Positions 7,312 through 48,119 of a stretch of 64,000 nt of DNA are shown here, piece after piece. Position 1 is the first letter of the stretch. Each line of letters begins with the position of its first letter. Position numbers and translations under genes: made by a program. Origin of the DNA: Thermaerobacter sp. FW80 (lineage in GTDB: Bacteria; Bacillota; Sulfobacillia; Thermaerobacterales; Thermaerobacteraceae). The notes below the pieces were generated by a model. It worked only from the letters and a program-made list of their open reading frames with translations. It ran no database searches and was not told the DNA's origin. Location of the stretch: positions 1,711,245 through 1,775,244 of the forward strand of contig NZ_CP037895.1 of the NCBI RefSeq assembly GCF_004634385.1, given 5' to 3'.

Positions 7312-8226
7312 ATGGGTCGAACGGTAAGGATATTGTCGGTGTTAATCGCTACGAGGAATCGTCCCGAGGCGCTAAGGTACTGTCTTTCTAGTGTTGCTCG
7401 GCAGGCACGTCCGCCAGGTTGGAGTGTAGAGGTAGTGGTACTAGATGACGCGCCGGAAATTAGTGCTCGTGAGGTCGCTGAAAGTTTGTCGGAGAGCTTA
7501 CCGATACGATATGTGCGTACGGATGCTCGTTTGGGCGTTACTGGGGCTCGTAATCGTCTGGCTGAGGTATCGCAAGGCTCTATATTGGTCGTGCTAGACG
7601 ATGACGCAGCATTTGTCGATAGTGATGCGCTCGTTCAGGTTGTTAAGGCGCTTGACCGCGATAACTCTATTGGTCTTATTGCGTTTTGCATTTACGACGA
7701 TCCTGGTGGCACGTTACACGTACCGTTTTCGAGGAAAGCGATACGGCGGAATCCGAATATCGTTAGTGAGGAAGGGTATGTTTCCTATTTCAACGGTGGA
7801 GGTTATGCCGTTCGGCGTGCAGCTTTGAATGCTGTCGGTTTGTACGATGCGGACATGAAGTATGGATGCGAAGAGTTGGACTTAGCATTTCGGCTAATCG
7901 AAAGCGGATGGACTATCCTTTATAATCCTAGAGTCAAGGTTCAGCATCGCGTGGCCACGAGCAGCTATTCAAGAGAATGGAAAGCATTCTATGCCTTGCG
8001 TAATCATCTGTGGGTTGGTAGAAGGTACCTACCGCTTCCTTATAGAGTAATGTACCTGGTATCATGGATACTCTATATGGGTTCCGAATTGATGATTCGG
8101 TACCGACGACCAGACATGGTTTGGGCAGCAATTAAAGAGGGGATTTGTGCGCCGCAGCCCAGGCGTATTCTGTCTAGAAGGGCAGTGAAATACCTAAAGA
8201 TGCATTATGGAAGGTTGTGGTGGTAA
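7312..8226 (+). CDS. Glycosyltransferase family 2, rhamnosyltransferase-like
   Basis: 304 residues. Motifs in order are SVLIATRNRPEALRYCL, VVVLDDAP, the metal-binding VVLDDDA, and GCEELDLAFRLIESGW, the catalytic-base region of GT2 enzymes. The C-terminus is basic. The ATG at 7312 is chosen because the GT2 fold begins four residues later and GGAGGAAG lies at 7293-7300. It is expected to act at the cytoplasmic membrane face on the polysaccharide repeat unit. Donor and acceptor are unknown. Confidence 0.9.
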   Translation: MGRTVRILSVLIATRNRPEALRYCLSSVARQARPPGWSVEVVVLDDAPEISAREVAESLSESLPIRYVRTDARLGVTGARNRLAEVSQGSILVVLDDDAAFVDSDALVQVVKALDRDNSIGLIAFCIYDDPGGTLHVPFSRKAIRRNPNIVSEEGYVSYFNGGGYAVRRAALNAVGLYDADMKYGCEELDLAFRLIESGWTILYNPRVKVQHRVATSSYSREWKAFYALRNHLWVGRRYLPLPYRVMYLVSWILYMGSELMIRYRRPDMVWAAIKEGICAPQPRRILSRRAVKYLKMHYGRLWW

Positions 8227-8492
8227 CATGACTACTAAGTAGTGGATTTGTGGTGGAAGTAGAAGTAGGGCCTATATGCAATGTTTGCGGTCCGGCCGCG
8301 GGTGCTGTGGTAGTGAGAACTTGTTCACGACAGGATGTTCGCATATTGGGAAGGAGCGAGGGCGAAAGAAGAAGGTTCGAGGTTGAAAGGAATAGGCCTA
8401 GTACCGGTATTATAGAGTACCGCAGGTGAGTCTGTTTAGAAGGTTGTCGAGTTGAGTTGGCGGGAAGTTTGGGAAGCAGGTGTTTCGGTTTG
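8227..8492 (+). other. Short AT-rich stretch with no recognisable gene
   Basis: No frame with a start site and family resemblance was found. It lies directly before the cpsD-tail remnant and may be decayed island sequence. Confidence 0.35.
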
Positions 8493-8612
8493 CAGTCGCA
8501 GAAGGCCAGAGAGGCTCTGGAGAAGGTTGGTGCCCGGATTTTGGAGGTTAACGTCAACGACGTGCAGCTTAAGCAGGTGGGGTATTATGCCTGCTATTAC
8601 CGGTGGGGATGA
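8493..8612 (+). pseudogene. Remnant: second copy of the cpsD 3' end
   Basis: The last 40 codons of a BY-kinase, in frame and ending in a stop. It parallels the end of cpsD at 5478-5597: QKAREALEKVGARIL against QKAKEALEKVGARIL, then VNDVQLKQVGYYACYYRWG against LNDVPLKRMGYYARYYRRR. No start codon, Walker motifs or cpsC partner precede it, so it cannot encode a kinase. The downstream terminator is also shared with cpsD, so the homology covers gene end plus terminator. Confidence 0.85.
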
Positions 8613-8682
8613 TGTCTAGACGAAGGCGTACAAAAGGAGCCAGTATGGGGTAACGGAATGCTGTAGTGATAGATAAGATAAA

Positions 8683-8716
8683 AAATGCCGGTCCTGCGTT
8701 CGACCGGCACTTTTCT
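8683..8716. terminator. Bidirectional intrinsic terminator, copy of the cpsD terminator
   Basis: Stem TGCCGGTC (8686-8693) and GACCGGCA (8702-8709). CTTTTC follows on the plus strand and T6 follows on the minus strand, so it can end transcription from the island and from the convergent small gene at 8732-8929. Confidence 0.8.
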
Positions 8717-8731
8717 AGGGTCGTGGCACCT

Positions 8732-8929
8732 TCAACGGAACCCGAGCGACTCCACCAGCCACCAGATGGCAATTATGCCGCCCACGGCCGTGATTCCCGC
8801 GAACACCAGCATAGCTTCCCTCAGGAGGGCTCTCTCAGAACTGGAGAGAACCTCTTCCGGCGTGGGGCGGTCGTACCGGTGTTGCCGTAGAGCTTTGACC
8901 ACAACGCGGAACAACTTAGCCAACGCCAA
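8732..8929 (-). CDS. Small single-span membrane protein; leader displaced by the IS element
   Basis: 65 residues: an amphipathic basic N-terminus (KLFRVVVKALRQ), a polar linker, then LLREAMLVFAGITAVGG and a tryptophan-rich membrane helix to the C-terminus. It resembles the 64-residue protein at 15363-15557 (LLRE, F-x-G, WL at equivalent places). The start is TTG at 8929 or TTG at 8923. An IS256 element inserted at 8931, so the original GGAGGA site (reverse strand, about 10366-10371) is now 1.4 kb away. Translation is therefore probably impaired unless the IS end supplies a new site. Function unknown. Confidence 0.6.
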   Translation of the reverse strand: MALAKLFRVVVKALRQHRYDRPTPEEVLSSSERALLREAMLVFAGITAVGGIIAIWWLVESLGFR

Positions 8930-8930
8930 T

Positions 8931-10356
8931 GGTGACGTCCTAAACTGTCTGTAAACGCGAAGCGGTCTGGGCTACCATCGGTGGCGTCGGAAAACTCGCC
9001 CCAGCTGGGGCACACCGAGGAGGACCCAGACCTATGTCCAGGATACCACCCAGCCAGCAGTTGGCGGAGCTGGCCCGGCAGCTGGCCGCGCAGGCCCGGG
9101 AGGGTACTGAGGTCGAGGACCTGACCCATGCCCTCGTCCGCCTGGGCGCCCGCAAGCTCATCCAGGAGCTGCTGGAGGCAGAGGTCACGGAGCTTTTGGG
9201 GCGCGGACGCTACGAGCGGCGCGAGCCTGGCCAGGAAGGCGCCCGCAACGGCTACAAGCCGCGGACGCTGCGTTGCGCCGAGGGGCGGCTCGAGATCGAC
9301 GTCCCCCAGGTGCGGGGCATGGAGGGACTGTGCCAGCCCACGCTGTGGAGGGCCCTCAAGCGGCGGACGGACGTGCTGGAGCGCCTGGTGGTGGAGATGT
9401 ACGCCCGGGGCCTCTCTACCCGGGACATCGAGGATGCGCTGGCGGAGCTGGCGGGCAGCGAAGCGCCGCTTTTGAGCCGGTCCACCGTGAGCCGGATCAC
9501 CGAGGCGCTCCACGAGGAGTTCGAGGCCTTTGCCCAGCGGGACCTGTCAGGCCTCGACGTGGTGTACCTGTTCGCCGACGCCATCTACGAGTCGCTGCGC
9601 CGGCAGGCGGGCTGCCGTGAGGGCATCCTGGTCACCTGGGCCATCTTGAGCGACGGCAGCAAGGTGCTGGTGCACCTGAGCCTGGGCAACAAGGAGCGCT
9701 ACGAGGACTGGCTGGAGCACTTCCGGGATCTGGTGCGCCGGGGGCTGAAGACGCCGCTGACGGTGACGACGGACGGGGCGCCGGGGCTGATCCAGGCGGT
9801 GGAAGCCATGTGGCCGGAGGCGGAGCGCATCCGCTGCTGGGTGCACAAGATGCGGAACGTGCTGGACAAGGTGCCGGAGGAGGCGCGGCCCGTGCTCAAG
9901 CCCTACCTGGAGGCGATCCGGGACGCACCGGATATCGAGCAGGGCCGGCGGCTGGTGGCCGAGGTGGTGGAGCGGTTCGGGCGGGAGTATCCCTCGGCCA
10001 TGCGGAGCCTGCAGGAGGACCTGGAAGCGAGCCTGGCGCACCTGCGGCTACCCGCCGCCCACCGCAAGCATGTCCGGACCACCAACCTGGTGGAGCGCAG
10101 CTTCGAGGAGGAGCGGCGGCGCGCCAAGGTGATCCCGCGGTTTCGGAGCGAGCGGGAGTGCCTGAAGCTAGTCTTCGCCGTGCTGTGGCGGGCGAGTGAG
10201 CGCTGGCGGCGGGTGCAGTTCAGCGAGCACGAACGAAAGCAGCTGGAGCGCTACATCGAGGAGCGGCAACGGCAAAGAGCGGCGCAGAAAGAGGTTTCAC
10301 CCGCTGCCACCGTGGCATGACCCAGACCGCTTTTACAGACAGTTCGGGACTTGACC
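8931..10356 (+). mobile_element. IS256-family insertion sequence, complete, 1426 bp
   Basis: The left end GGTGACGTCCTAAACTGTCT (8931-8950) and the reverse complement of the right end (10356 backwards, GGTCAAGTCCCGAACTGTCT) match at 21 of the first 25 bases, forming terminal inverted repeats. The 9-bp target duplication AACGCCAAT flanks it at 8922-8930 and 10357-10365. One intact transposase lies inside. Size, duplication length and transposase family all agree with IS256. The undecayed target duplication suggests a recent insertion. Confidence 0.95.
9034..10320 (+). CDS. IS256-family (Mutator-like) transposase
   Basis: 428 residues, full length for the family. Catalytic acidic residues fit the DDE pattern: D in YLFADAIYESL, D in TVTTDGAPGLIQA, and E in TNLVERSFEEERRR. 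The C-x2-H-like CWVHKMRNVLDK region follows the second aspartate. The ATG at 9034 is preceded by GAGGAGGACCC. It catalyses copy-out/paste-in movement through a circular intermediate in studied members. No frameshift or stop is visible, so it is probably active. Confidence 0.96.
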   Translation: MSRIPPSQQLAELARQLAAQAREGTEVEDLTHALVRLGARKLIQELLEAEVTELLGRGRYERREPGQEGARNGYKPRTLRCAEGRLEIDVPQVRGMEGLCQPTLWRALKRRTDVLERLVVEMYARGLSTRDIEDALAELAGSEAPLLSRSTVSRITEALHEEFEAFAQRDLSGLDVVYLFADAIYESLRRQAGCREGILVTWAILSDGSKVLVHLSLGNKERYEDWLEHFRDLVRRGLKTPLTVTTDGAPGLIQAVEAMWPEAERIRCWVHKMRNVLDKVPEEARPVLKPYLEAIRDAPDIEQGRRLVAEVVERFGREYPSAMRSLQEDLEASLAHLRLPAAHRKHVRTTNLVERSFEEERRRAKVIPRFRSERECLKLVFAVLWRASERWRRVQFSEHERKQLERYIEERQRQRAAQKEVSPAATVA

Positions 10357-10365
10357 AACGCCAAT

Positions 10366-10566
10366 TCCTCCGTGTATCTAGACTAGTGTGGAAATTGCTG
10401 GGCCCTGTCGAAAATTGGCTATCTGTTGGTTGTTTATACCGTTCCTTTCTGGTCCGTTCCTGTTGCCGGATTGGCTACCTCCCCAATGCTGGACTGAGTC
10501 CCGGAAACGTGGCTCTGCCGGGAGGATGCCGGTCCTACCACCGGAAGGCAGAGAGGAGGAGGCGCC
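10366..10566 (+). other. Spacer between the IS element and the CocE pseudogene
   Basis: Holds the original upstream region of the small membrane gene on the minus strand (TCCTCC at 10366-10371 is its ribosome binding site read backwards) and, on the plus strand, GAGAGGAGGAGG just before 10567. No other gene seen. Confidence 0.5.
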
Positions 10567-12305
10567 TTGGCCTGGCTTGGCGATACCCCGGAACCCTCCG
10601 TAGTTCCCAGTGGCGTGCCTTCGTCCCGGTCATCCCTCTTCGGTAATCGGGATTCATCCTGGCCTGTTTACCCCGTTCGCCACGAGTTCAACGTCCGTGT
10701 CCCCATGCGGGACGGGATCACCCTCTCGGCGGACATCTACCGCCCCGACGCCCCGGGGAGGTTGCCCGGACGCCCTACAACAAGAACACCGAACGGGCGT
10801 GGAAGTACGGGAACTTCTTCGCCCGGCACGGCTACGTCTTCGTGTGGATGGACGTGCGGGGGCGCGGGGACTCTGACGGGGAGTTCGTCCCCTACCGCAA
10901 CGACGCCAAGGACGGCTACGACGCCATCGAGTGGCTGGCCCGGCAGCCCTGGTCCACCGGCGACGTGGCCACCTGGGGCGGGTCCTATCTCGGGCGCATC
11001 CAGTGGCTCACCGCCCTGGAGAAGCCGCCCCACCTCAAGGCCATGATCGTCCACGTGACGCCGTCGGACCCCTACGTGGAGTGGCCCACGGGCACGCCCG
11101 GGCCCATGCACGTGTGCTGGAACCGCATGACCGACGGCCGGGTTCTTCAGTACGTGGACAAGATCGACTGGATGAAGGTCTACGAGCACCTGCCGCTTCT
11201 AACCATGGACAAGGCGGCGGGGTTCGTGAGCCGGCACTGGCGGGAAGACTGCGCCCACCCCACCCTGGACGAATGGTGGGAGCCCCTGCGCTACCAGCAC
11301 CGCTTCCACGAGATCGACCTGCCGGTGCTGCACGTCTCGGGCTGGTACGACGACGAGCAGATCGGCACGCCCTTGAACTTCGCCGGCATGGTGCGGCACG
11401 CCCCCAGCGAGCGGGCCCGGCGGGGCCAGAAGCTGATCATGGGGCCCTGGGGGCACCGGGTCAACGAGAGCCGTAAGCTGGGCGAGGTGGACTTCGGGCC
11501 GGAGGCCGTGATCGACCTGGACGGGTACGAGGTGCGCTGGCTCGACTACTGGCTCAAGGGCATCGACAACGGCATCGGCGAGGAGCCGCCGGTGCGCCTG
11601 TTCATCATGGGGGCGAACCGCTGGCGGGACGAGCACGAGTGGCCCCTGGCCCGCACCCAGTGGACCAAGTTCTACCTGCGCAGCGGCGGCCGCGCCAACA
11701 GCCGCTTCGGCGACGGCGTGCTGTCCACCGAGCCGCCGGCGACGGACGAGCCTCCGGACGTCTACCTCTATGACCCGGCCCGGCCGGTGCCCTTCATCAC
11801 CGATCCGCTCTCGAGCCAGATCGGCGGCCCCGATGACTACTCCGCCGTCGAGACCCGGGGCGACGTGCTGGTCTACTCGACCCCGCCCCTGGACCGGGAC
11901 GTGGAGGTGACGGGGCCGGTGAAGCTGGTGCTGTACGCCTCGTCGTCGGCGGTGGACACCGACTTCATGGCCAAGCTGGTGGACGTGCACCCCAATGGCT
12001 TCTGCCAGCGGCTGTGCGATGGCATGGTCCGGGCCCGGTTCCGGGAGGGCATGCACAAGGAGGTCTTGATGGAGCCAGGCAAGGTGTACCGGTTCGAGAT
12101 CGACCTCTGGAACACGGCCAACGTGTTCAGGCGAGGGCACCGGATTCGCCTCGAGATCGCCTCCAGCGCCTTCCCCAAGTACGACCGGAACCTCAACACC
12201 GGCGAGCCCCTGGCCACCTCCACGCGCATGGTGGTGGCGGAGAACCGGGTCTGGCACACGCCGGCGTGGCCGTCGCACCTGATCTTGCCCATCATCCCGG
12301 AGTAG
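10567..12305 (+). pseudogene. CocE/NonD-type hydrolase (X-Pro dipeptidyl-peptidase family), frameshifted
   Basis: The N-terminal frame gives RHEFNVRVPMRDGITLSADI and ends its homology at RPDAPGRLP (about 10767). Homology resumes in another frame at ARTPYNKNTERAW (10764 onward), then MDVRGRGDSDGEF, the nucleophile motif WGGSYLG, and the C-terminal jelly-roll domain to 12305. About three family residues are missing at the join, which fits a roughly 10-base deletion at 10761-10770. Family members are serine esterases or peptidases acting on acyl esters or proline peptides. The start TTG 10567 has AGAGGAGGAGG upstream. It is either a genuine pseudogene or a sequencing error; the rest is well preserved, so inactivation would be recent. 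Confidence 0.85.
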
Positions 12306-12354
12306 GGGCCTGGGCGGCTCGCGGCGCCGAACTGGGAGAGGACCATGACGCCCG

Positions 12355-12383
12355 TTGTCATCCTGCTCGCGGGACCCTATGGT
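12355..12383 (+). promoter_or_regulatory. Sigma-A type promoter for the UDP-glucose dehydrogenase gene
   Basis: TTGTCA (12355-12360) and TATGGT (12378-12383) are separated by exactly 17 bases, about 70 bases before the GTG at 12455. Confidence 0.6.
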
Positions 12384-12454
12384 ATCATGTTTCCAGCTGC
12401 CGAGGGCTGGTCCATTTGGATGGATTGAACGATTTCTCAGGGGGCGAGATCTTC

Positions 12455-14011
12455 GTGCGCATCACCGTGCTGGGGCTCGGTTATGTCGGCGCCGTCGCCG
12501 CCGCGGCGCTGGCGCGGGACGGTCACCAGGTGGTGGGGGTCGACGTGGACCCCGCCAAGGTCGAACGATACCGCCGGGCGGAGGTGCCCTTCTACGAGCC
12601 CGGGTTGGACGAGCTGGTGCGCGAAGGGGTGGCGGCCGGCCGGCTGCGGTTTGCCCTGGCCGGGGAGGTCGAACCCGGCCAGCTGGGCGATTTCGTGTTC
12701 GTCGCCGTGGGGACGCCGTCCCGGGCCACCGGGGCGGCGGACTTGAGTCAGGTGGAGGCGGCCCTGGCCTGGGTGGCCGAACGGGTGCGCCGAGGGCGCC
12801 CGGCAGGGGCGGGCGTTCTTCCGGCCGGCGAGGCCGTCGATCCGCAGGGCGGTGCCGGTTCGTCCGACGGGATCGCAGGGGCCGGCCGCGTCGCCATGGC
12901 CGGGGCCGAAGCGACGGCCGGGACGGTGTGGCCTGCCGCGGCCGACGGGCTGCGGGCGCCCATCGTGGTGGTGAAGAGCACCGTGCCGCCCGGGACCGGC
13001 CGGCGGCTGGCCCGGCGCTACCTGGCGCCCCTGGGCCTCGCCTACGTCGCCAACCCCGAGTTCCTGCGCGAGGGCAGCGCCGTCCACGACTGGTTCCATC
13101 CCGACCGGGTGGTGGTGGGCAGCGAGGAGCGCGCGGCGGCGGAGCGGGTGGCGGCGCTCTTCGCGGGGTACGGGGCGCCCGTGCTGGTCACCGACACCAC
13201 GACGGCGGAGATGGTCAAGTACGGGGCCAACGCCTTCCTGGCCACCAAGATCTCCTTCATCAACGAGCTCGCCAACATGTGCGACCGCGTCGGGGCCGAC
13301 GTGGACGAAGTCGCCCGGGGCATCGGGCTCGATCCGCGCATCGGGAGCCAGTTCCTCCGCGCCGGCCTCGGCTACGGCGGTTCCTGCTTCCCCAAGGACG
13401 TGGCGGCCCTGGACCATTTGGCCCGGGTCTACGACTACCCCTTCGAGCTGCTGCGGGCGGTGATCGCGGTCAACGCGCGGCAGCGGCTGCTGCCCCTCTA
13501 CGCGCTGCGGGAGGTCTTCGGCTCGCTGGCCGGGGTGCCCGTGGCCGTGCTGGGCCTGGCCTTCAAGCCCAACACCGACGACGTCCGCGAGGCGCCGGCC
13601 CTCGACCTCATCCCGCTCCTGGTGGAGGAGGGGGCCGAGGTGCGGGCGGCGGATCCGCAGGCCGTGGAGCGGGCGCGGGCGGTGCTGCCCGGCGAGGTGC
13701 GGTTGACCCCGTCGGCCCTCGAGGCGCTGGACGGCGCGCGGGCTGTGGTGCTCGCCACGGAGTGGGACGCTTTCGTCCGCCTGGACTGGGAGGAGGCGGC
13801 GCGGCGGATGGACGAGCCGCGGTTCGTGTTCGACGGCCGCAACGCGCTGGATCCGGCGCGGATGGCGGCGCTGGGGTTCCGGTACCGCGGCGTGGGGCGG
13901 GGCCGGCAGCGGCTCGCCGGGGGACGTGACGCGGTCGCCTCCTCGACGCCCGACCTCCCGCGCGGCGAGGTGGTGGCGGCGCGGAACGCGGCGGTGGGCG
14001 GAGGCGCGTGA
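12455..14011 (+). CDS. UDP-glucose/GDP-mannose 6-dehydrogenase
   Basis: 518 residues. N-terminal NAD-binding ITVLGLGYVGAVAAA, VAVGTPS, substrate-loop NPEFLREGSAVHDW, helix EMVKYGANAFLATKISF, the catalytic cysteine in GYGGSCFPKD, and the C-terminal UDP-binding domain (GLAFKPNTDDVREAPAL). It oxidises a nucleotide hexose to the uronic acid with two NAD+, supplying acidic sugars for surface polysaccharides. Residues about 115-162 are an Ala/Gly-rich insertion absent from typical family members, and it carries a near-copy of the dispersed 13-mer at 12853-12865. The C-terminus has a 40-residue low-complexity tail. The GTG at 12455 is chosen as the residue just before the Rossmann strand. Confidence 0.93.
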   Translation: MRITVLGLGYVGAVAAAALARDGHQVVGVDVDPAKVERYRRAEVPFYEPGLDELVREGVAAGRLRFALAGEVEPGQLGDFVFVAVGTPSRATGAADLSQVEAALAWVAERVRRGRPAGAGVLPAGEAVDPQGGAGSSDGIAGAGRVAMAGAEATAGTVWPAAADGLRAPIVVVKSTVPPGTGRRLARRYLAPLGLAYVANPEFLREGSAVHDWFHPDRVVVGSEERAAAERVAALFAGYGAPVLVTDTTTAEMVKYGANAFLATKISFINELANMCDRVGADVDEVARGIGLDPRIGSQFLRAGLGYGGSCFPKDVAALDHLARVYDYPFELLRAVIAVNARQRLLPLYALREVFGSLAGVPVAVLGLAFKPNTDDVREAPALDLIPLLVEEGAEVRAADPQAVERARAVLPGEVRLTPSALEALDGARAVVLATEWDAFVRLDWEEAARRMDEPRFVFDGRNALDPARMAALGFRYRGVGRGRQRLAGGRDAVASSTPDLPRGEVVAARNAAVGGGA

Positions 14012-38814: not shown

Positions 38815-39548
38815 GGGGGCGTAGCCCCCGGCGCATCCCGCGATGGCGAGGGGACGGCCGCGCGGGGCGGGCCCAGCGCCCCGCGCGGCCGCTCTGGACT
38901 GCATCCCCGTCCATGGGCCCCGTGCCCGCCGCCGCACGGGGCGGGCCCAGCGCCCGGGGCGGCCGCCGCTGCCATCTCCTCTTGCGCGGAGCCTGCGATG
39001 CCCTTAGATTCGGGGCGGGGAAGCCTTCGTCCCCCAGGGGTCCCGAACCGGATCGAACCGCCCTGCGGCGACCCATCGGAATCCCGGACGCGGTGCCCAG
39101 CGTGACGCCCGCACCGCGATGCGCAGTGCGCGCATCAGCTCGTGCACCCCGACTCCCGCGGTCCCTGTGACCCGCTGGCTTTTTCCCACCGCCATGCCTC
39201 CGGTCGGTGCGTTGGCCTGCCTGGGAGGGATGGGTGCGTGCCAGGCGACCGGGCCGGCGCCGCGCCGCGGCGCCCGCGCTGACCCGGTGCGACGCCGCGG
39301 CGCCCGCGCTGACCCGGCGCGACGCCGGGGCGCCCGCGTCGACGAGCGCCGGCGACGGGGAGCGGTCCGTCTCCTCTCCGGTCCCGGGGGCGCCGGGACC
39401 GCGGCCCGGTCGGGACCCGCGGAAGCGCGGCCGGGACGCCCGCAAGATGCGGAAGGGTTCGAGGGCTCGAAGGCCGGTGGGGTGACGGAGACCTTCTGGA
39501 CTGCGACCGGGCGCGGGGGCGCCGGTCGCCGGCGAAAGGGGGAGACGC
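38815..39548 (+). other. 730-base spacer before the permuted binding-protein gene
   Basis: No gene supported. It contains the 30-bp repeat at 39260-39347 and GC-rich low-complexity sequence. Confidence 0.5.
39260..39347. repeat. 30-bp tandem repeat, nearly three units
   Basis: The unit core GCCGCGGCGCCCGCGCTGAC recurs at 30-base spacing, with the third unit diverging at its end. Confidence 0.8.
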
Positions 39549-41222
39549 ATGGTCGGTCGGACGAGGTGGTTCGGGCCCCGGGCGGTTCGCGAAGAAGGCT
39601 GTGGAGCCGGGACCGGGTGCCCGCCGTCATGGAACGCGCGGCGGCCTGGCGCCCGGCCACGGTTGTGCTGGCTGGTGGTCGTCCTGCTCGGCTTCGCGGT
39701 GGCCGGCTGCACCGGTGGCGGGCAGGAGACGGCCGGCGGGGAGGCCGGTTCGTCCGAGGGGAAGGTGCTGACCCTGACCCTGGACGGGGCGAAGAATCGG
39801 GAGGCGGAGCTGCAGGTCATCGCCCAGTACCTGAAGCAGGTGGGCATCGACGCCCAGGTGCGGGTGTGGGAGTACCAGACCCTGGTGGCCGAGGCCCAGA
39901 AGGGGACGCGGCAGGCGTACGCCACGGACTGGGGCAGCTCCACGTTCAGTCCCGTGGACCTCGCGGTGCCCAAGCTGGAGACCGGCGGGCGCGGCAACTA
40001 CTCCTTCTACTCCAACCCCGAGGTCGACGCCCTGTTCCGGCAGGCGGCCGCCACCACCGACGAGGGCGAGGCCCTCGAGGCCTACAAGAAGGCGCAGGAG
40101 ATCATCTACCGGGATGCGCCGTGGATCTTCGGCTACTACCTGGACGCCATCGAGGCGGCGTCGACCCGGGTGAAGAACTGGCAACCCTCCATGGACAGTC
40201 GCGTCAATCTCCACGACGTGGAGCTGGAGGACGGGGACACGCTGGTGGTGGGCCTGCGCGCCGACCGCATCCTCTCCCTGGATCCGGCGGCCTACCGGGA
40301 CCGAGACACCGAGACGGTGATCCGCAACATCTACGACGGTCTGGTGACCCGGACGCCCGACGGCGAGGTGGTGCCGGAGATCGCCGAGTCGTGGGAGCAG
40401 CCCGACCCGACCACCTACATCTTCAAGCTGCGCCGGGGCATCAAGTTCCACAACGGTGAGGAGCTGACGGCCGACGACGTGGTGTTCACCTTCGAGCGGA
40501 TCCTGGCCGACGACGGGCTGGACGGCCAGCCCTCGCCGCGGAAGGGGCTGGTGGAGCCGCTCCAGTCCGTCGAGAAGGTGGACGACTACACCGTGCGGAT
40601 GAAGCTGGCGAAGCCGTCGGCCGCGTTCCTCCAGCTCCTGGTGCACACCCAGATCGTCCCCAAGGACTACGTGGAGGAAGTGGGTAGCCGGGGGCTGTCG
40701 GAGCACCCCGTGGGGGCGGGTCCCTTCAAGTTCGTCGAGGGGAGCCTCGACGGCCAGATCGTGCTGGAGCGGTTCGACGGGTACTACGGCGGTTCGCCGG
40801 AGCTGCCGCCTGTGGGCCCGGCCAAGGTGCGGCGCGTGGTCTTCCGCATGATGCCGGAGCCAGCCACCCGCATCGCGGCGCTGAAGAGCGGGGAGGTCCA
40901 CATCGTCCAGGAGGTGCCGCCGGACATGGTGGCCGACCTGGAGCGAGACCCCAACGTGCAGGTCAAGGTCACCCAGGGGACCCGGCTCTACATGATCGAG
41001 CTCAACAACAAGGTGCTCTCCGACCCCCGGGTGCGACAGGCGCTGAACTACGCCATCGACTGGGACGCGATCCTCCAGGAGCTGTACCAGGGCCACGCCC
41101 ACCGCGTGGCGACGGCGATGCTGCCCAGCGGCTTCGGCTACCACGAGGGCCTCGAGCCGTACCCCTACGACCCGGAGAAGGCGAAGCAGCTGCTGCGCGA
41201 GGCGGGCTACAGGGTCGACTGA
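39549..41222 (+). CDS. Circularly permuted peptide-type solute-binding lipoprotein (SBP family 5)
   Basis: 557 residues with a lipobox at VAGC (Cys54) after a long basic start. Segment order is reversed. Residues about 73-227 are what normally ends a DppA/OppA-type protein: LTLDGAKNREAELQVIAQYL, GNYSFYSNPEVDALFRQA, EIIYRDAPWIF, VNLHDVEL. Residues about 228-557 are what normally begins one: TLVVGLRADRILSLDPAAYR, NIYDGLVTR, FKLRRGIKFHNGEELTADDV, VGAGPFKFVEG, RQALNYAIDWDAI, ending at DPEKAKQLLREAGYRVD. That end would normally continue straight into the segment found at residue 73. Both halves look intact. It should bind peptides or nickel/sugar-like ligands outside the membrane and feed the two permeases downstream. 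The ATG at 39549 has GGGGGAGACGC upstream. Confidence 0.9.
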   Translation: MVGRTRWFGPRAVREEGCGAGTGCPPSWNARRPGARPRLCWLVVVLLGFAVAGCTGGGQETAGGEAGSSEGKVLTLTLDGAKNREAELQVIAQYLKQVGIDAQVRVWEYQTLVAEAQKGTRQAYATDWGSSTFSPVDLAVPKLETGGRGNYSFYSNPEVDALFRQAAATTDEGEALEAYKKAQEIIYRDAPWIFGYYLDAIEAASTRVKNWQPSMDSRVNLHDVELEDGDTLVVGLRADRILSLDPAAYRDRDTETVIRNIYDGLVTRTPDGEVVPEIAESWEQPDPTTYIFKLRRGIKFHNGEELTADDVVFTFERILADDGLDGQPSPRKGLVEPLQSVEKVDDYTVRMKLAKPSAAFLQLLVHTQIVPKDYVEEVGSRGLSEHPVGAGPFKFVEGSLDGQIVLERFDGYYGGSPELPPVGPAKVRRVVFRMMPEPATRIAALKSGEVHIVQEVPPDMVADLERDPNVQVKVTQGTRLYMIELNNKVLSDPRVRQALNYAIDWDAILQELYQGHAHRVATAMLPSGFGYHEGLEPYPYDPEKAKQLLREAGYRVD

Positions 41223-41642
41223 GGGACGAACCCGGCCATCGCCGGGCGGACGAATGGGACCCTCCCCGGCACCCGCGCGGCAGGTGAGCCCACCCTCGCC
41301 CGGCGGACCGACGCGCGGCGGCCGCGCCGGGGCGCGCGGCGGGCGAGGGCGGCGGGCGGCGGCGGGCGGTAACGGCGGGCGGTAACGGCGGGCGGTGACG
41401 GCGGGTGGTGGCGGCGCCCGGGCCGCGGGTGTGGCCGCCGTGGAGCGGTGGCGCTCCCGGAGGTGGCTTCGGCATGGCTTCGTCCGCGCCGCCGGCGGGC
41501 GTGGCCGCCCTGCGGCCGGGGCCGCTGCCCCCCGGCGGCCGGCTCCAATGCCAGCCGGGGACGGGGCGACCGTCGGCGCCCTTTGGGCGCGCCGGCCCGG
41601 GGACCCGCGCGGCGCGGGCCGCAGGGGACGGGAGGTGACGGG
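41223..41642 (+). other. Spacer between binding-protein and permease genes with 13-bp repeats
   Basis: No gene supported. It includes a run of TAACGGCGGGCGG-like units (about 41343-41412). Confidence 0.6.
41343..41412. repeat. 13-bp tandem repeat
   Basis: GGCGGGCGGTAAC recurs three to four times with drift to GGCGGGCGGTGAC. Confidence 0.8.
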
Positions 41643-42662
41643 ATGCGGGGCGCGTGGATCGTGCGTCGTCTGGCCATGGCGCTTCCCCTGGCGGTGGGGA
41701 TCGTGCTGGTGAGCTTCATCCTCCTGCGGGTGATGCCGGGCGACCCCGTGGACATCATGCTGCGCGGCGGCGGCATGTCCAGCGAGGAGGAGGCGCGGGC
41801 CCTGGCCCGGGAGCTGGGCCTGGACCAGCCGCTGCACGTCCAGCTGGGCCGGTTCGTCGCCGATCTGGCCCATGGCGACCTGGGCGAGTCCATCCGCAGC
41901 CGCCAACCGGTGGGGCAGGTGCTGCTGGCGACCCTGCCGGCCACGGTGGAGCTGGCCGTGGCGGCGCTCGGCTTCGCCGTGGTGGCGGGGGTGGCGCTGG
42001 GCGTGCTGGCGGCGGTGCGCCGCGGCTCGTGGCTCGACCGGCTGGTCATGGCGACGGCCTCCCTCGGCATCTCCATGCCCGCCTTCTGGTTCGGCATCGT
42101 GCTGATGCTGGTGCTGGCGGTGGGCACCGGCTGGTTGCCCACCTCCGGCCGCATCGCCTCCGAGTACGCCGGCGCCGTGCCTTGGCGGACCGGGTTCCTC
42201 CTGATCGACACGCTGCTGGCGGGCAACGGGGCCGCCTTCCGGTCCGCCCTCGCCCACCTGGTGCTGCCGGCCGTGACCCTGGGCGCGGAGCTGGCGGCGG
42301 TGGTGGCCCGGGTGACCCGCTCCAGCATGCTGGAGGTGCTGGGGGCCGAGTTCATCCGCACGGCCCGGGCCAAGGGCCTCCACGAGCGGCGGGTGGTCCT
42401 GGTCCATGCCCTGCGCAACGCCCTGATCCCCACCGCCAGCGTGGTGGGGTTGCAGGCGGGGGTGCTGCTGGGCGGCAACATGATCGTCGAGACGGTGTTC
42501 GGCTGGCCGGGCCTAGGAAGGCTGGTGGTCGAGGCCATCTTCGCCCGGGACTACCCGGTGGTCCAGGGGGCGGTGATGGTCTACGCGCTGACCTTCCTGG
42601 TGATGAACCTGCTGGTCGACCTGGCCTACACGTGGCTCGATCCGCGCATCCGGGAGGCGTAG
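41643..42662 (+). CDS. Peptide-type ABC transporter permease (DppB/OppB-like)
   Basis: 339 residues, six membrane helices. N-terminal LPLAVGIVLVSFILLRVMPGDPVD is characteristic, as is the EAA coupling loop EFIRTARAKGLHERRVVLVHALRNALIPT and the final FGWPGLGRLVVEAIFARDYP. It forms half the membrane channel of an importer for peptides or related ligands. The ATG at 41643 has GGAGGTGACGG directly upstream. No ATPase gene (DppD/DppF) lies in the window, so ATPases must be supplied elsewhere. Confidence 0.94.
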   Translation: MRGAWIVRRLAMALPLAVGIVLVSFILLRVMPGDPVDIMLRGGGMSSEEEARALARELGLDQPLHVQLGRFVADLAHGDLGESIRSRQPVGQVLLATLPATVELAVAALGFAVVAGVALGVLAAVRRGSWLDRLVMATASLGISMPAFWFGIVLMLVLAVGTGWLPTSGRIASEYAGAVPWRTGFLLIDTLLAGNGAAFRSALAHLVLPAVTLGAELAAVVARVTRSSMLEVLGAEFIRTARAKGLHERRVVLVHALRNALIPTASVVGLQAGVLLGGNMIVETVFGWPGLGRLVVEAIFARDYPVVQGAVMVYALTFLVMNLLVDLAYTWLDPRIREA

Positions 42663-43360
42663 CCGGGCGGCCTGGGGCGTGCCGACGGCGGGGGTGCGGA
42701 CGGCGCGGCAGGTACGGACCCCGCACGAGGGGGCGGACGAGGTCGGGGACGCTGCGCGGGGCGGTTGGCGAGGGCGACCGGCTCCCGGTCCTGGGCCAAT
42801 CGAGGCCCAATCGCGCGGCCAGGGGAGGTGCCGACCGAGGCTCCTTCCTGCGGCAAGCCGGGGTCCCACCCGCGACCATCCGTGGTCCGTGCGTGCGGTC
42901 ACGCCGGCGCCCGCGTCCGCGGACACCCAGCGGTCCCTGCCCGCGGCCAGGCGAAGTCCCCGCGCCCCGGCACGCCGGGGCCCGTTCCCGCGGGCCCGCG
43001 GCGGCCGCCGCCCGGGCCAGGCGAGGTCCCTGCGTGCTGGCACACCGGGGCCGTCCCCACGGGCCCGCGGTGGCCGCTGCCCGGGCCAGGCGAGGTCCCT
43101 GCCCGCAGGCGCGCCGAGGCGGCCCGGGCGGTCCGTCAAACCGGACATCCGCCGGGCCGACCTGGGGAGGGATGCGGCGCACGGGGCCATCCCAGGCGAA
43201 GACGGGACCATCACGGCCGGAGGACGACGGGCGCAGGGTGGTGGCGGGCGAGCACCGCGAACCCATGGGCGAAACCGGGGACGAGGGCTACCGGGGGCGG
43301 CAGCGACGTCGGCTGGCTGCGAGCGGCGGGAGCGGGACCGGTTGGAGAGGAGGGTCGGCC
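42663..43360 (+). other. 700-base repeat-rich spacer between the two permease genes
   Basis: No gene supported. It contains 69-70-bp repeats at 42951-43128. Permease genes of this family usually lie only a few bases apart. Confidence 0.6.
42951..43128. repeat. 69-70-bp tandem repeat, about 2.5 units
   Basis: Units begin GCGARGTCCC at 42951, 43021 and 43090 and share CCCGCGG and CCGGGCCAG blocks. Confidence 0.8.
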
Positions 43361-44530
43361 ATGCCATACGGGAGGCAGGATCCGGTGCGGGGCGGGCGAC
43401 GGGACGAACGGGCCTGGCACCTCCGGCCGGAGGGTGGCGTCGGGGGCGATCTGGGCGATGCGATCCGGGGGACCGGGGCGTCCGGCGGGGCGACCGTCGT
43501 CGCCGCGGCCGCCGGATTCGTCGCCGCCCCTTCCTCCGGCCCGACCGCTGCCTACCGGGTGGGAGCGGTGGCCAGGCCGGACGCGGCGCCCCAGGGGGCT
43601 CGCCCGATCGCCGACCGCCCGGCCTCCACCGTCGTCGCGCCAGGCCGGGTCCCCGGTGGCGCTCCCGCGCCCGGTGGGACCCCTGGCGCCTGGCGCCGGC
43701 TGTGGCGGCGGCATCCCCAGATGGTGGTCGGCCTGCTGGTGGTGGCGCTCTACGTGGCGGCGGCGGTGGCGGCGCCGTGGCTCGCGCCCTACGACCCCGA
43801 CGACTTCACCCTAAGCGCGCGGCTGGCACCGCCGGCCTTCCTCCCCGGCGGCCACCCGGAGCACTTGCTGGGCACCGACCGGCTGGGGCGCGACCTCTTG
43901 ACCCAGCTGCTCTACGGGGCCCGCGTCTCCTTGCTGGTGGGGGCGGTGGGGGTCATGGTGGCCGGCCTCTTCGGGTCGGTGCTCGGCGCGGTGGCCGGAT
44001 ACTTCGGGGGCCTGGTCGATCAGGTGCTCTCCCGCGCGGCCGACCTGCTGATGGCCTTTCCGTATCTGCTCTTCACCATCCTGATGATGGGGATCCTGGG
44101 GCCGGGCATCGGCAACCTGATCCTGGCCCTGACCTTCAAGGCCTGGGTCGAGTTCTTCCGGGTGGCGCGGGGCCAGGTGCTGGCGGAGAAGGCCAAGCCC
44201 TACGTCGAGGCGGCCCGGGCCATCGGGCGCGGCCACGCCGGCATCCTGGCGCGGGAGATCCTGCCCAACATCGTGCACGCGCTCCTGGTGGTGGCCACCC
44301 TGCGGGCCGGTCACATGATCCTGATGGAGGCGTCCCTGAGCTTCCTGGGCATCGGCGTCCCGCCCGACGTGCCGGCGTGGGGCTCCATGGTGGCCGAGGG
44401 GCGCGACTATCTCGGCACCGCGTGGTGGGTCTCCACCCTGCCGGGGTTGGCCGTGCTGGTGCTGGTCCTGGCGGTGAACACCCTGGGCGACGGGCTGCGG
44501 GAGATGCTGGATCCGCGGCTGCGGGTGTGA
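43361..44530 (+). CDS. Peptide-type ABC transporter permease (DppC/OppC-like)
   Basis: 389 residues; the first 105 are a low-complexity extension. Conserved part: HPQMVVGLLVVALYVAAAVA, LAPYDPDDF, HLLGTDRLGRDLLTQLLYGAR, the coupling loop EAARAIGRGHAGILAREILPN, and EASLSFLGIGVPPDVPAWGSM. It pairs with the DppB-like permease. The ATG at 43361 follows GGAGAGGAGGG. The extension carries an exact GGACGAACGGGCC at 43402-43414. Confidence 0.93.
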   Translation: MPYGRQDPVRGGRRDERAWHLRPEGGVGGDLGDAIRGTGASGGATVVAAAAGFVAAPSSGPTAAYRVGAVARPDAAPQGARPIADRPASTVVAPGRVPGGAPAPGGTPGAWRRLWRRHPQMVVGLLVVALYVAAAVAAPWLAPYDPDDFTLSARLAPPAFLPGGHPEHLLGTDRLGRDLLTQLLYGARVSLLVGAVGVMVAGLFGSVLGAVAGYFGGLVDQVLSRAADLLMAFPYLLFTILMMGILGPGIGNLILALTFKAWVEFFRVARGQVLAEKAKPYVEAARAIGRGHAGILAREILPNIVHALLVVATLRAGHMILMEASLSFLGIGVPPDVPAWGSMVAEGRDYLGTAWWVSTLPGLAVLVLVLAVNTLGDGLREMLDPRLRV

Positions 44531-46901: not shown

Positions 46902-48119
46902 TTGGCCGTGCTCCCTGCCCCCTGGGGTCCGCGCCTGGAGGCCCTGTTCGGCACTATGGTGGCCTGGCGGCGCCATCTCCATCAGCATCCCGAGCTGTCC
47001 TTCCAGGAAGTCGAGACGCCGCGCTTCATCGCGGAGCGGCTGCGGGAGGCGGGCATCCCCGTCCGCACCGGCGTCGGCGGGCGGGGGGTGGTGGGGGTGA
47101 TCGAGGGCGCCCGGCCGGGCCCGACGGTGGCCCTGCGGGCCGACTTCGACGCACTGCCGATCCAGGACGAGAAGGACGTGCCCTATCGCTCCCAGGTGCC
47201 CGGCGTCATGCACGCCTGCGGCCACGACGCCCACACGGCGACTTTGCTGGCGGTGGGACGGGTCTTGATGGAAGAACGCCGCCGCCTCCGGGGCCGCGTG
47301 GTGCTGATCCACCAGTTCGCCGAGGAGGTCGCGCCGGGCGGCGCCAAGCCCATGATCGAGGACGGGTGTCTGGACGGGGTCGATGTGATCTTCGGCACCC
47401 ACCTCTGGACCCCGCTGCCCGTGGGGCGGGTCGGCTACTGCCCGGGTTACGCCATGGCCGCCGCCGACCGCTTCGAGATCGAGATCCTGGGCCAGGGCTG
47501 CCACGCCGCTGCTCCCCACCAGGGGGTCGACCCCATCCTGGTGGCGGCCCAGGTGGTCACGCAGCTGCAGCAGGTGGTGGGGCGGATGGTCGACCCCCTG
47601 GAGCCGGCGGTGGTTTCGGTGGGGACGCTGCACGCCGGCACGGCCTTCAACGTGATCCCTGCCACCGCCACCCTGACGGGGACGGTGCGGACCTTGAGCC
47701 CCGCGGTGCGGGACCGGATGGAGACCCTGCTCGAGCGGCTGGTGCGCGGGACCTGCGAGGCCCACGGGGCCGGGTATCGTTTCAAGTACGAGCGGGGCTA
47801 TCCGGCCCTGTGCAACCACGAGGACATGACGGCCTTCGCGGCCGAAGCCATCCAGCGTTACGCCGGCGCGGAGGCGGTGGAGCGGGTGGCGCCGGTGATG
47901 GGCGGCGAGGACTTCGCCTACTACCTGCAGAAGGTGCCGGGCTGCTTCTTCTTCACCGGGGCAGGCAATCCCGAGGTGGGCGCCTCGTACCCCCACCATC
48001 ACCCGCGCTTCGACATCGACGAGCGGGCCATGCTGGTGGCGGGCCGCGCGCTCTTGGCGGTGACGCTGCGGTACCTCGTGGGGGATGAGGAGCTGGAGCG
48101 GGGGATGGCCACCGGCTAA
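46902..48119 (+). CDS. M20-family amidohydrolase (aminoacylase/N-acyl amino acid deacylase-like)
   Basis: 405 residues. Start WRRHLHQHPELSFQEVET; metal-ligand segments VALRADFDALPIQDE, HACGHDAHTATLL, IHQFAEEVAPGGAKPMIE (catalytic Glu pair), GTHLW and the final YPHHHPRFDIDERAM. This is the IAA-amino acid hydrolase/AmhX-like branch that splits acyl groups from amino acids or small peptides. The TTG at 46902 has GAGGGAGG upstream. It may process imported conjugates. It is divergent from the YkvI-like transporter, so a functional link is possible. Confidence 0.93.
   Translation: MAVLPAPWGPRLEALFGTMVAWRRHLHQHPELSFQEVETPRFIAERLREAGIPVRTGVGGRGVVGVIEGARPGPTVALRADFDALPIQDEKDVPYRSQVPGVMHACGHDAHTATLLAVGRVLMEERRRLRGRVVLIHQFAEEVAPGGAKPMIEDGCLDGVDVIFGTHLWTPLPVGRVGYCPGYAMAAADRFEIEILGQGCHAAAPHQGVDPILVAAQVVTQLQQVVGRMVDPLEPAVVSVGTLHAGTAFNVIPATATLTGTVRTLSPAVRDRMETLLERLVRGTCEAHGAGYRFKYERGYPALCNHEDMTAFAAEAIQRYAGAEAVERVAPVMGGEDFAYYLQKVPGCFFFTGAGNPEVGASYPHHHPRFDIDERAMLVAGRALLAVTLRYLVGDEELERGMATG

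Follow-up and report, generated by a model that had tools for sequence, protein, structure and literature searches.

The gene at positions 39549-41222 of the window, that is, of the whole stretch of 64,000 nucleotides analysed here, raises the question of whether its product is a solute-binding protein of family 5 (SBP5) with a circularly permuted chain, as put forward in the initial annotation, or whether the unusual order of its parts stems from gene fusion or from an assembly error. Natural circular permutation is uncommon, and the fusion of neighbouring genes is a common route to a new order of parts. The features needed for an answer are the following, all on the forward strand.

39549..41222, +, circularly permuted SBP family 5 lipoprotein of 557 amino acids (open reading frame; rotated PF00496 match; conserved in relatives; dN/dS 0.13-0.20)
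39549..39710, +, lipoprotein signal peptide with the lipobox AVAG-C54 at its end (sequence)
39762..40229, +, C-terminal part of an ordinary SBP5, here in first place, from the C-lobe beta-alpha-beta unit to the normal C terminus (NWQPSMDSRVNLHDVELE) (PF00496 279-360; C-terminal parts of PDB chains; C-terminal ends of normal sisters)
40200..40260, +, head-to-tail junction (...RVNLHDVELEDGDTLVVGL...), where a linker of a few residues connects the ancestral C terminus to the ancestral N terminus (termini of the unpermuted sisters L104, L105, L107 and L110; dN/dS 0.03-0.11)
40230..41219, +, N-terminal part of an ordinary SBP5, here in second place, with the helix PEKAKQLLREAGYRVD as its last element (PF00496 1-283; model residues 175-504 on 1uqw 3-323)
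41643..42662, +, DppB-type permease gene (PF00528, 143 bits; PF19300; same place in related loci, whether the SBP gene is permuted or of normal order)
43574..44530, +, DppC-type permease gene with an uncertain start codon (PF00528, 96 bits; OppC_N; related loci)

The open reading frame is immediately preceded by GGGGGAG, a ribosome-binding site as good as had been claimed, and the lipobox AVAGC places Cys54 at position 39708. Homologues possess lipoboxes or signal-peptidase-I-like sites. A tandem repeat of a GC-rich 30-bp unit (2.8 copies) occupies positions 39254-39338, about 200 bases 5' of the gene. As a whole, the protein matches SBP_bac_5 (PF00496) with 305 bits at a curated cut-off of 32.4, but the collinear order expected of this family is not found when the profile matches are inspected. 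Profile positions 279-360 come first, on window positions 39741-39974 (residues 65-142; 32 bits, by themselves slightly below the cut-off), and profile positions 1-283 come second, on positions 40365-41225 (277 bits), which places the protein as a permuted branch of SBP_bac_5 and not as an ordinary member. The same rotation is evident from a phmmer comparison with PDB chains, in which residues 242-554 correspond to positions 55-359 and residues 75-226 to positions 366-520 of 5u4o. The three best alignments of the PDB sequence search were all of ordinary order and, among the matches listed, the query was hit in its second part; NCBIfam and Pfam matches included no model with the permuted order. 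The same genome contains six other SBP5 genes, each with one collinear PF00496 stretch; five of them have the normal order by both segments, and for the sixth, L007, only the N-part was matched.

The C-terminal part, which begins at K72 (39762) and covers residues 72-227, and the N-terminal part (D228-D557) together cover the family length exactly once, in agreement with the earlier statement that both look complete. The junction lies at about residues 223-228 (40215-40230), and its two sides, NWQPSMDSRVNLHDVELE-DGDTLVVGL, correspond to the C-terminal ends (NWxPSMDSRENMHRVKL) and the mature starts (GGTIVIAL) of the unpermuted Caldanaerobacter-type sisters. At the other end, the last residues of the protein are KAKQLLREAGYRVD, and ordinary members continue from this helix directly into the strand that is found at residue 73 of the window protein. 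This continuation had been stated in the initial annotation and is exemplified by the normal sister L104 (PEKAKQLLKEAGYEKGFNMVFDTTEE). Unpermuted sisters such as L110 from Caldanaerobacter subterraneus and L104 from Clostridiales PH28_bin88 share about 60% identity in the N-terminal part and 48-57% in the C-terminal part, the operon and the terminal motifs with the window protein, and differ from it in their ordinary chain order.

Since fusion of neighbours commonly yields a new order, the C-terminal remnant of one SBP gene could have been joined to the truncated N-terminal remnant of an unrelated one, perhaps as a decaying chimera. This origin is highly improbable. The nearest normal-order proteins are identical for both parts, namely the Caldanaerobacter-type proteins L107, L183 and L187 (59-61% identity in the N-terminal and 55-57% in the C-terminal part; 60% and 57% for L107), and it follows that one parent was rotated instead of two parents being joined. 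In all three groups of permuted proteins (A, B and C) described below, both parts share their closest normal-order relatives. Furthermore, the two parts add up to one whole family length and dN/dS is low. We therefore ruled out a two-parent chimera on the grounds that the nearest relatives of both parts coincide.

The initial annotation had also asked for the same order in related genomes. Full-length collinear homologues indeed occur in three congeneric genomes (86-88% identity), in another genus of this family (81%) and in other families (55-64%). Within the class, the permuted gene is carried by 22 of 154 genomes. Carriers on a single contig include G028 and CP062796 (Candidatus Fermentithermobacillus carboniphilus), and both CP062796 and Moorella mulderi DSM 14980 count among the complete or cultured ones, whereas the majority of the remaining carriers are metagenome-assembled genomes. 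Clustering of the permuted proteins at 92% identity yielded 41 distinct representatives. In one metagenome-assembled genome, of the Fermentithermobacillaceae, the permuted gene (L017 / L084) contains one in-frame TAG, which may denote a pseudogene, an error or readthrough. When the window gene is compared with those of its congeners, dN/dS amounts to 0.13-0.20 in both parts and to 0.03-0.11 across the 50 codons around the junction.

An erroneous join of two tandem SBP genes during assembly or scaffolding has next to no likelihood in the face of these data, even though tandem SBP5 genes do occur in related genomes (two in L038) and many of the other carriers are metagenome-assembled. Four close genomes (81-88% identity) and dozens more, some of the latter on one contig, repeat the order; the junction is in frame and under strong purifying selection, and export signals precede the rotated part. 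No remnant of a second SBP gene was found near the gene within the window. The same full-length order in four close genomes and in many families is neither due to chance nor to misassembly, and the latter was ruled out because the order is conserved in many independent genomes. The claim that the gene looks functional and not scrambled is supported by sequence comparison, and the permutation is old, shared and under purifying selection.

The two matching permease genes that had been noted downstream are of the cognate DppB and DppC types. In related loci, the slot before dppB-dppC is filled by permuted or unpermuted SBP genes alike, and in several relatives an ATPase gene follows the dpp genes. 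The gap between dppB and dppC is unusually long in the window (about 0.9 kb) and harbours a 69-bp tandem repeat of 3.4 copies (42884-43120). A gene for an M20-family peptidase/aminoacylase (46902-48119, +) is located 3' of the operon. The designation as a peptide-binding protein found no support. In an alignment to 1dpe, Ser131 of the window protein takes the position of Asp408 of DppA, the residue that holds the alpha-amino group of the peptide, and the protein thus lacks the aspartate characteristic of peptide-binding SBPs. Within group A, to which the window protein belongs, this position is mostly occupied by S or A; group B retains the Asp motif GDNGDPDNF. Most likely, the window protein serves a DppBC importer as an ordinary substrate-binding lipoprotein that is tethered by the other lobe.

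A role of the permuted protein as a sensor or receptor component instead of a transport SBP could be derived from L102, in which a permuted SBP5 is fused to SBP_bac_3, PAS, HisKA, HATPase and receiver domains. We consider this role very unlikely, because the other permuted loci examined place the SBP directly 5' of dppB and dppC, several of them together with ATPase genes. The L102 frame itself (7512-13244, +; 1911 residues) carries the permuted family 5 domain at its N terminus and apparently encodes a hybrid sensor kinase in which the permuted SBP is the first sensor domain.

Structural support comes from AlphaFold2 (AF2) predictions. The mature permuted protein was modelled with a mean pLDDT of 90.1 and a pTM of 0.84, close to the values for the unpermuted sister L110 (pLDDT 92.9, pTM 0.89). 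The L110 model aligns over its full length with crystal structures of family 5 (TM 0.90 to 1uqw), and only residues 175-504 of the permuted model align, to residues 3-323 of 1uqw (Z 27.3, rmsd 1.7, TM 0.57). Against SBP5 structures this stretch reaches Z scores of 24-27, and the first 170 residues are beyond the reach of order-dependent aligners. With such aligners, alignment of one part alone is the very signature that would be expected of a permutation. A search for a solved permuted relative with Foldseek and VIA-align, both order-dependent, likewise placed only residues 175-504 on ordinary chains, and a permuted structure may still exist.

The L110 model opens with the first N-lobe strand (15-20) and, after further elements, reaches a crossover strand (254-269). 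Helices (279-337) then lead to the initial strand of the C-lobe (344-349), after which come helix, strand, helix and strand (to 398), further helices, the second crossover strand (461-474) and the end of the chain. The permuted model starts with the C-lobe strand (22-28) and proceeds via a crossover (139-152), the N-lobe strand (178-183) and a second crossover (417-432) to the final helix (489-498). The initial annotation had expected the hinge connections of the ligand cleft to be moved, but both inter-lobe crossover strands (at about 139-152 and 417-432) are retained in the model and the hinge is predicted not to be rearranged. According to the sequence, the new termini arose within the C-lobe, where the helix KAKQLLREAGY would normally lead into the strand LTLTL. 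The models locate the natural termini at the passage from one crossover strand into the N-lobe's first strand, and the new termini at the passage from the other crossover into the first C-lobe strand. Judged by the order of secondary structure elements, the new cut is the apparent pseudo-symmetric counterpart of the natural termini, and we infer that the two lobes of a pseudo-symmetric fold trade places through the permutation. A cut at this site would shift the lipid anchor to the other lobe, and the models agree with the earlier prediction of a changed anchor position, from the N-lobe to the C-lobe. The lobes of binding proteins are symmetric and have been proposed to originate from duplication (PMC9815098, PMC10601554).

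In summary of these lines of evidence, we regard it as very likely that the gene encodes the SBP lipoprotein of a Dpp/Opp-type ABC importer with a circularly permuted chain. The sequence shows that the normal C and N termini have been joined by a short linker and that new termini have been opened in the C-lobe; in the model, the permuted chain keeps a confident fold with both crossover strands; and comparison with relatives shows that the protein takes the SBP slot in the operon of its unpermuted sisters (SBP-dppB-dppC) under purifying selection. It would close on its ligand and dock onto DppBC like an ordinary family 5 SBP, with the lipid tether on the C-lobe rather than on the N-lobe. The route may have been a head-to-tail duplication and fusion followed by loss of the outer parts, with the signal peptide being kept. 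Tolerance of the opening site would follow from its pseudo-symmetric correspondence to the natural termini, by which the permuted chain would again be a normal type II chain with exchanged lobes. This would explain why cuts fall into the same stretch in separate SBP5 lineages.

With SBP family 5 or cluster C (PF00496), comprising DppA, OppA, GsiB/YliB, HbpA and NikA, the window protein shares homology over its whole length, the lipoprotein export signal, the DppB/DppC partners and probably, according to the model, the fold. It differs by an order rotated by about 155 residues, by termini and a lipid anchor located in the C-lobe and, from DppA, by the serine in place of the aspartate for the peptide amino group. 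We found no description of circular permutation in SBP family 5 in the open-access literature, in keeping with the initial annotation, which knew of none. The closest precedent is Tp0684 (TpMglB-2) from Treponema pallidum, a type I glucose-binding lipoprotein with a circularly permuted N-lobe topology that also occurs in other treponemes and in Gram-positive bacteria, for which the authors proposed a 'cluster Bc' (type Ic) and asked whether tethering drives the permutation (PMC4990184). Both cases represent a natural, conserved permutation of a lipid-anchored binding protein of ABC transporters across several genera. Tp0684, however, has the type I cluster B sugar fold, its permutation adds a fourth crossover and one lineage is described, whereas the permuted proteins described here are of type II, keep both crossovers and represent several lineages. 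The window protein is not a member of the TpMglB-2-like type I/cluster B sequence family, as PF00496 is its sole match. Engineered, permuted halves of ribose-binding protein also make use of the two-lobe symmetry of the binding-protein fold, but are designed single lobes of a type I protein and not natural whole proteins (PMC9815098).

The permutation is real and does not stand alone: the same kind of permutation, as judged from sequences, probably arose in three or more SBP5 lineages, and in at least two, with two cut points. The sampling for recurrence covered part of the phylum and hardly touched other phyla. Group B consists of the DppA-like proteins L020, L021, L028 and L064-L066, which are cut in the same helix-strand loop as group A and lie in the midst of DppA-like proteins of normal order, for example L034 and L068; permuted L020 and normal L034 are 69/63% identical. 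Forcing groups A and B into one clade lowered lnL by 585 and was rejected (p-AU 5.9e-78).

Group C, from another class of the phylum, contains the normal order and two cut types among close relatives. In G509, the permuted L188 is cut in the same loop as group A, and the 12 normal-order proteins of its cluster are 59-79% identical to it, block by block. Six relatives (L194-L199, from G571, G569, G570, G567, G539 and G542) were opened at another site, which follows the crossover strand (GFN | PFEDVRVRQA) and lies upstream of the first by about 65 residues; these proteins start with HPFEDVRVRQALNYAID, end with GFNLQPQ and sit in complete dpp operons. Permuted L194 and normal L209 even have the signal peptide and an acidic linker in common (FLVLLLMTGLLxGGCAPDEEVVDEPVDE). 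Permuted and normal types alike precede dppB-dppC and ATPase genes in group C, and both cut sites fall within one interval, from the crossover strand to the first strand of the C-lobe beta-alpha-beta unit.

These data lead us to favour, with some reservation, a recurrent and still ongoing permutation in SBP5 of the Bacillota, with at least three independent lineages and two sites that always lie in the C-lobe interval between crossover and first strand, such that the type II pseudo-symmetry predicts the allowed sites and the anchored lobe is exchangeable. The converse history, a single ancient permutation with repeated reversion to the normal order, appears unlikely. One origin within group B is compatible with the trees (p-AU 0.207 for group B as one clade). 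Likewise, the Symbiobacterium MAG protein L101, whose linker resembles those of group A, may represent a further independent permutation, but a single origin shared with group A, later reverted in the L107 line, is equally parsimonious at two changes; its separation from the other members of group A is of borderline significance (p-AU 0.054 for the SBP alone and 0.005 with the permeases). On the other hand, a single ancient event is at odds with the rejected union of groups A and B, with the existence of two different cut points and with the combined tree including group C, which requires seven changes of order, six or more of which are imposed by well supported branches. For the third group with its two cut types, one clade receives a p-AU of 1.8e-6. 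Recombination may account for the scattered occurrence of the second cut type, given that most such proteins share the tail FNLQPQ, and recombination between normal and permuted genes could disturb the trees and hence the counts of origins. No intermediate tandem gene was seen.

Recurrent permutation would make this one large transporter family, with close unpermuted relatives in the same operon, amenable to direct comparison. One could test in this way whether chain order or the choice of the anchored lobe governs folding, export, tethering and docking, and whether the cut points that the fold permits follow from its duplicated two-lobe origin. Repeated swaps in one stretch of the fold constitute a natural experiment in re-cutting protein chains without loss of function. 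In profile-based annotation and family alignments, permuted SBP5 genes end up split or misaligned without any warning.

Two further genes deserve mention. L204 (994-2601, -) is a normal-order group C gene with one in-frame TGA inside. In L213, an SBP5 is encoded in two overlapping frames (1384-2301 and 2249-2956, +) that are split almost exactly at the second cut site. The cause could be a frameshift or an assembly error, or the protein may truly consist of two pieces.
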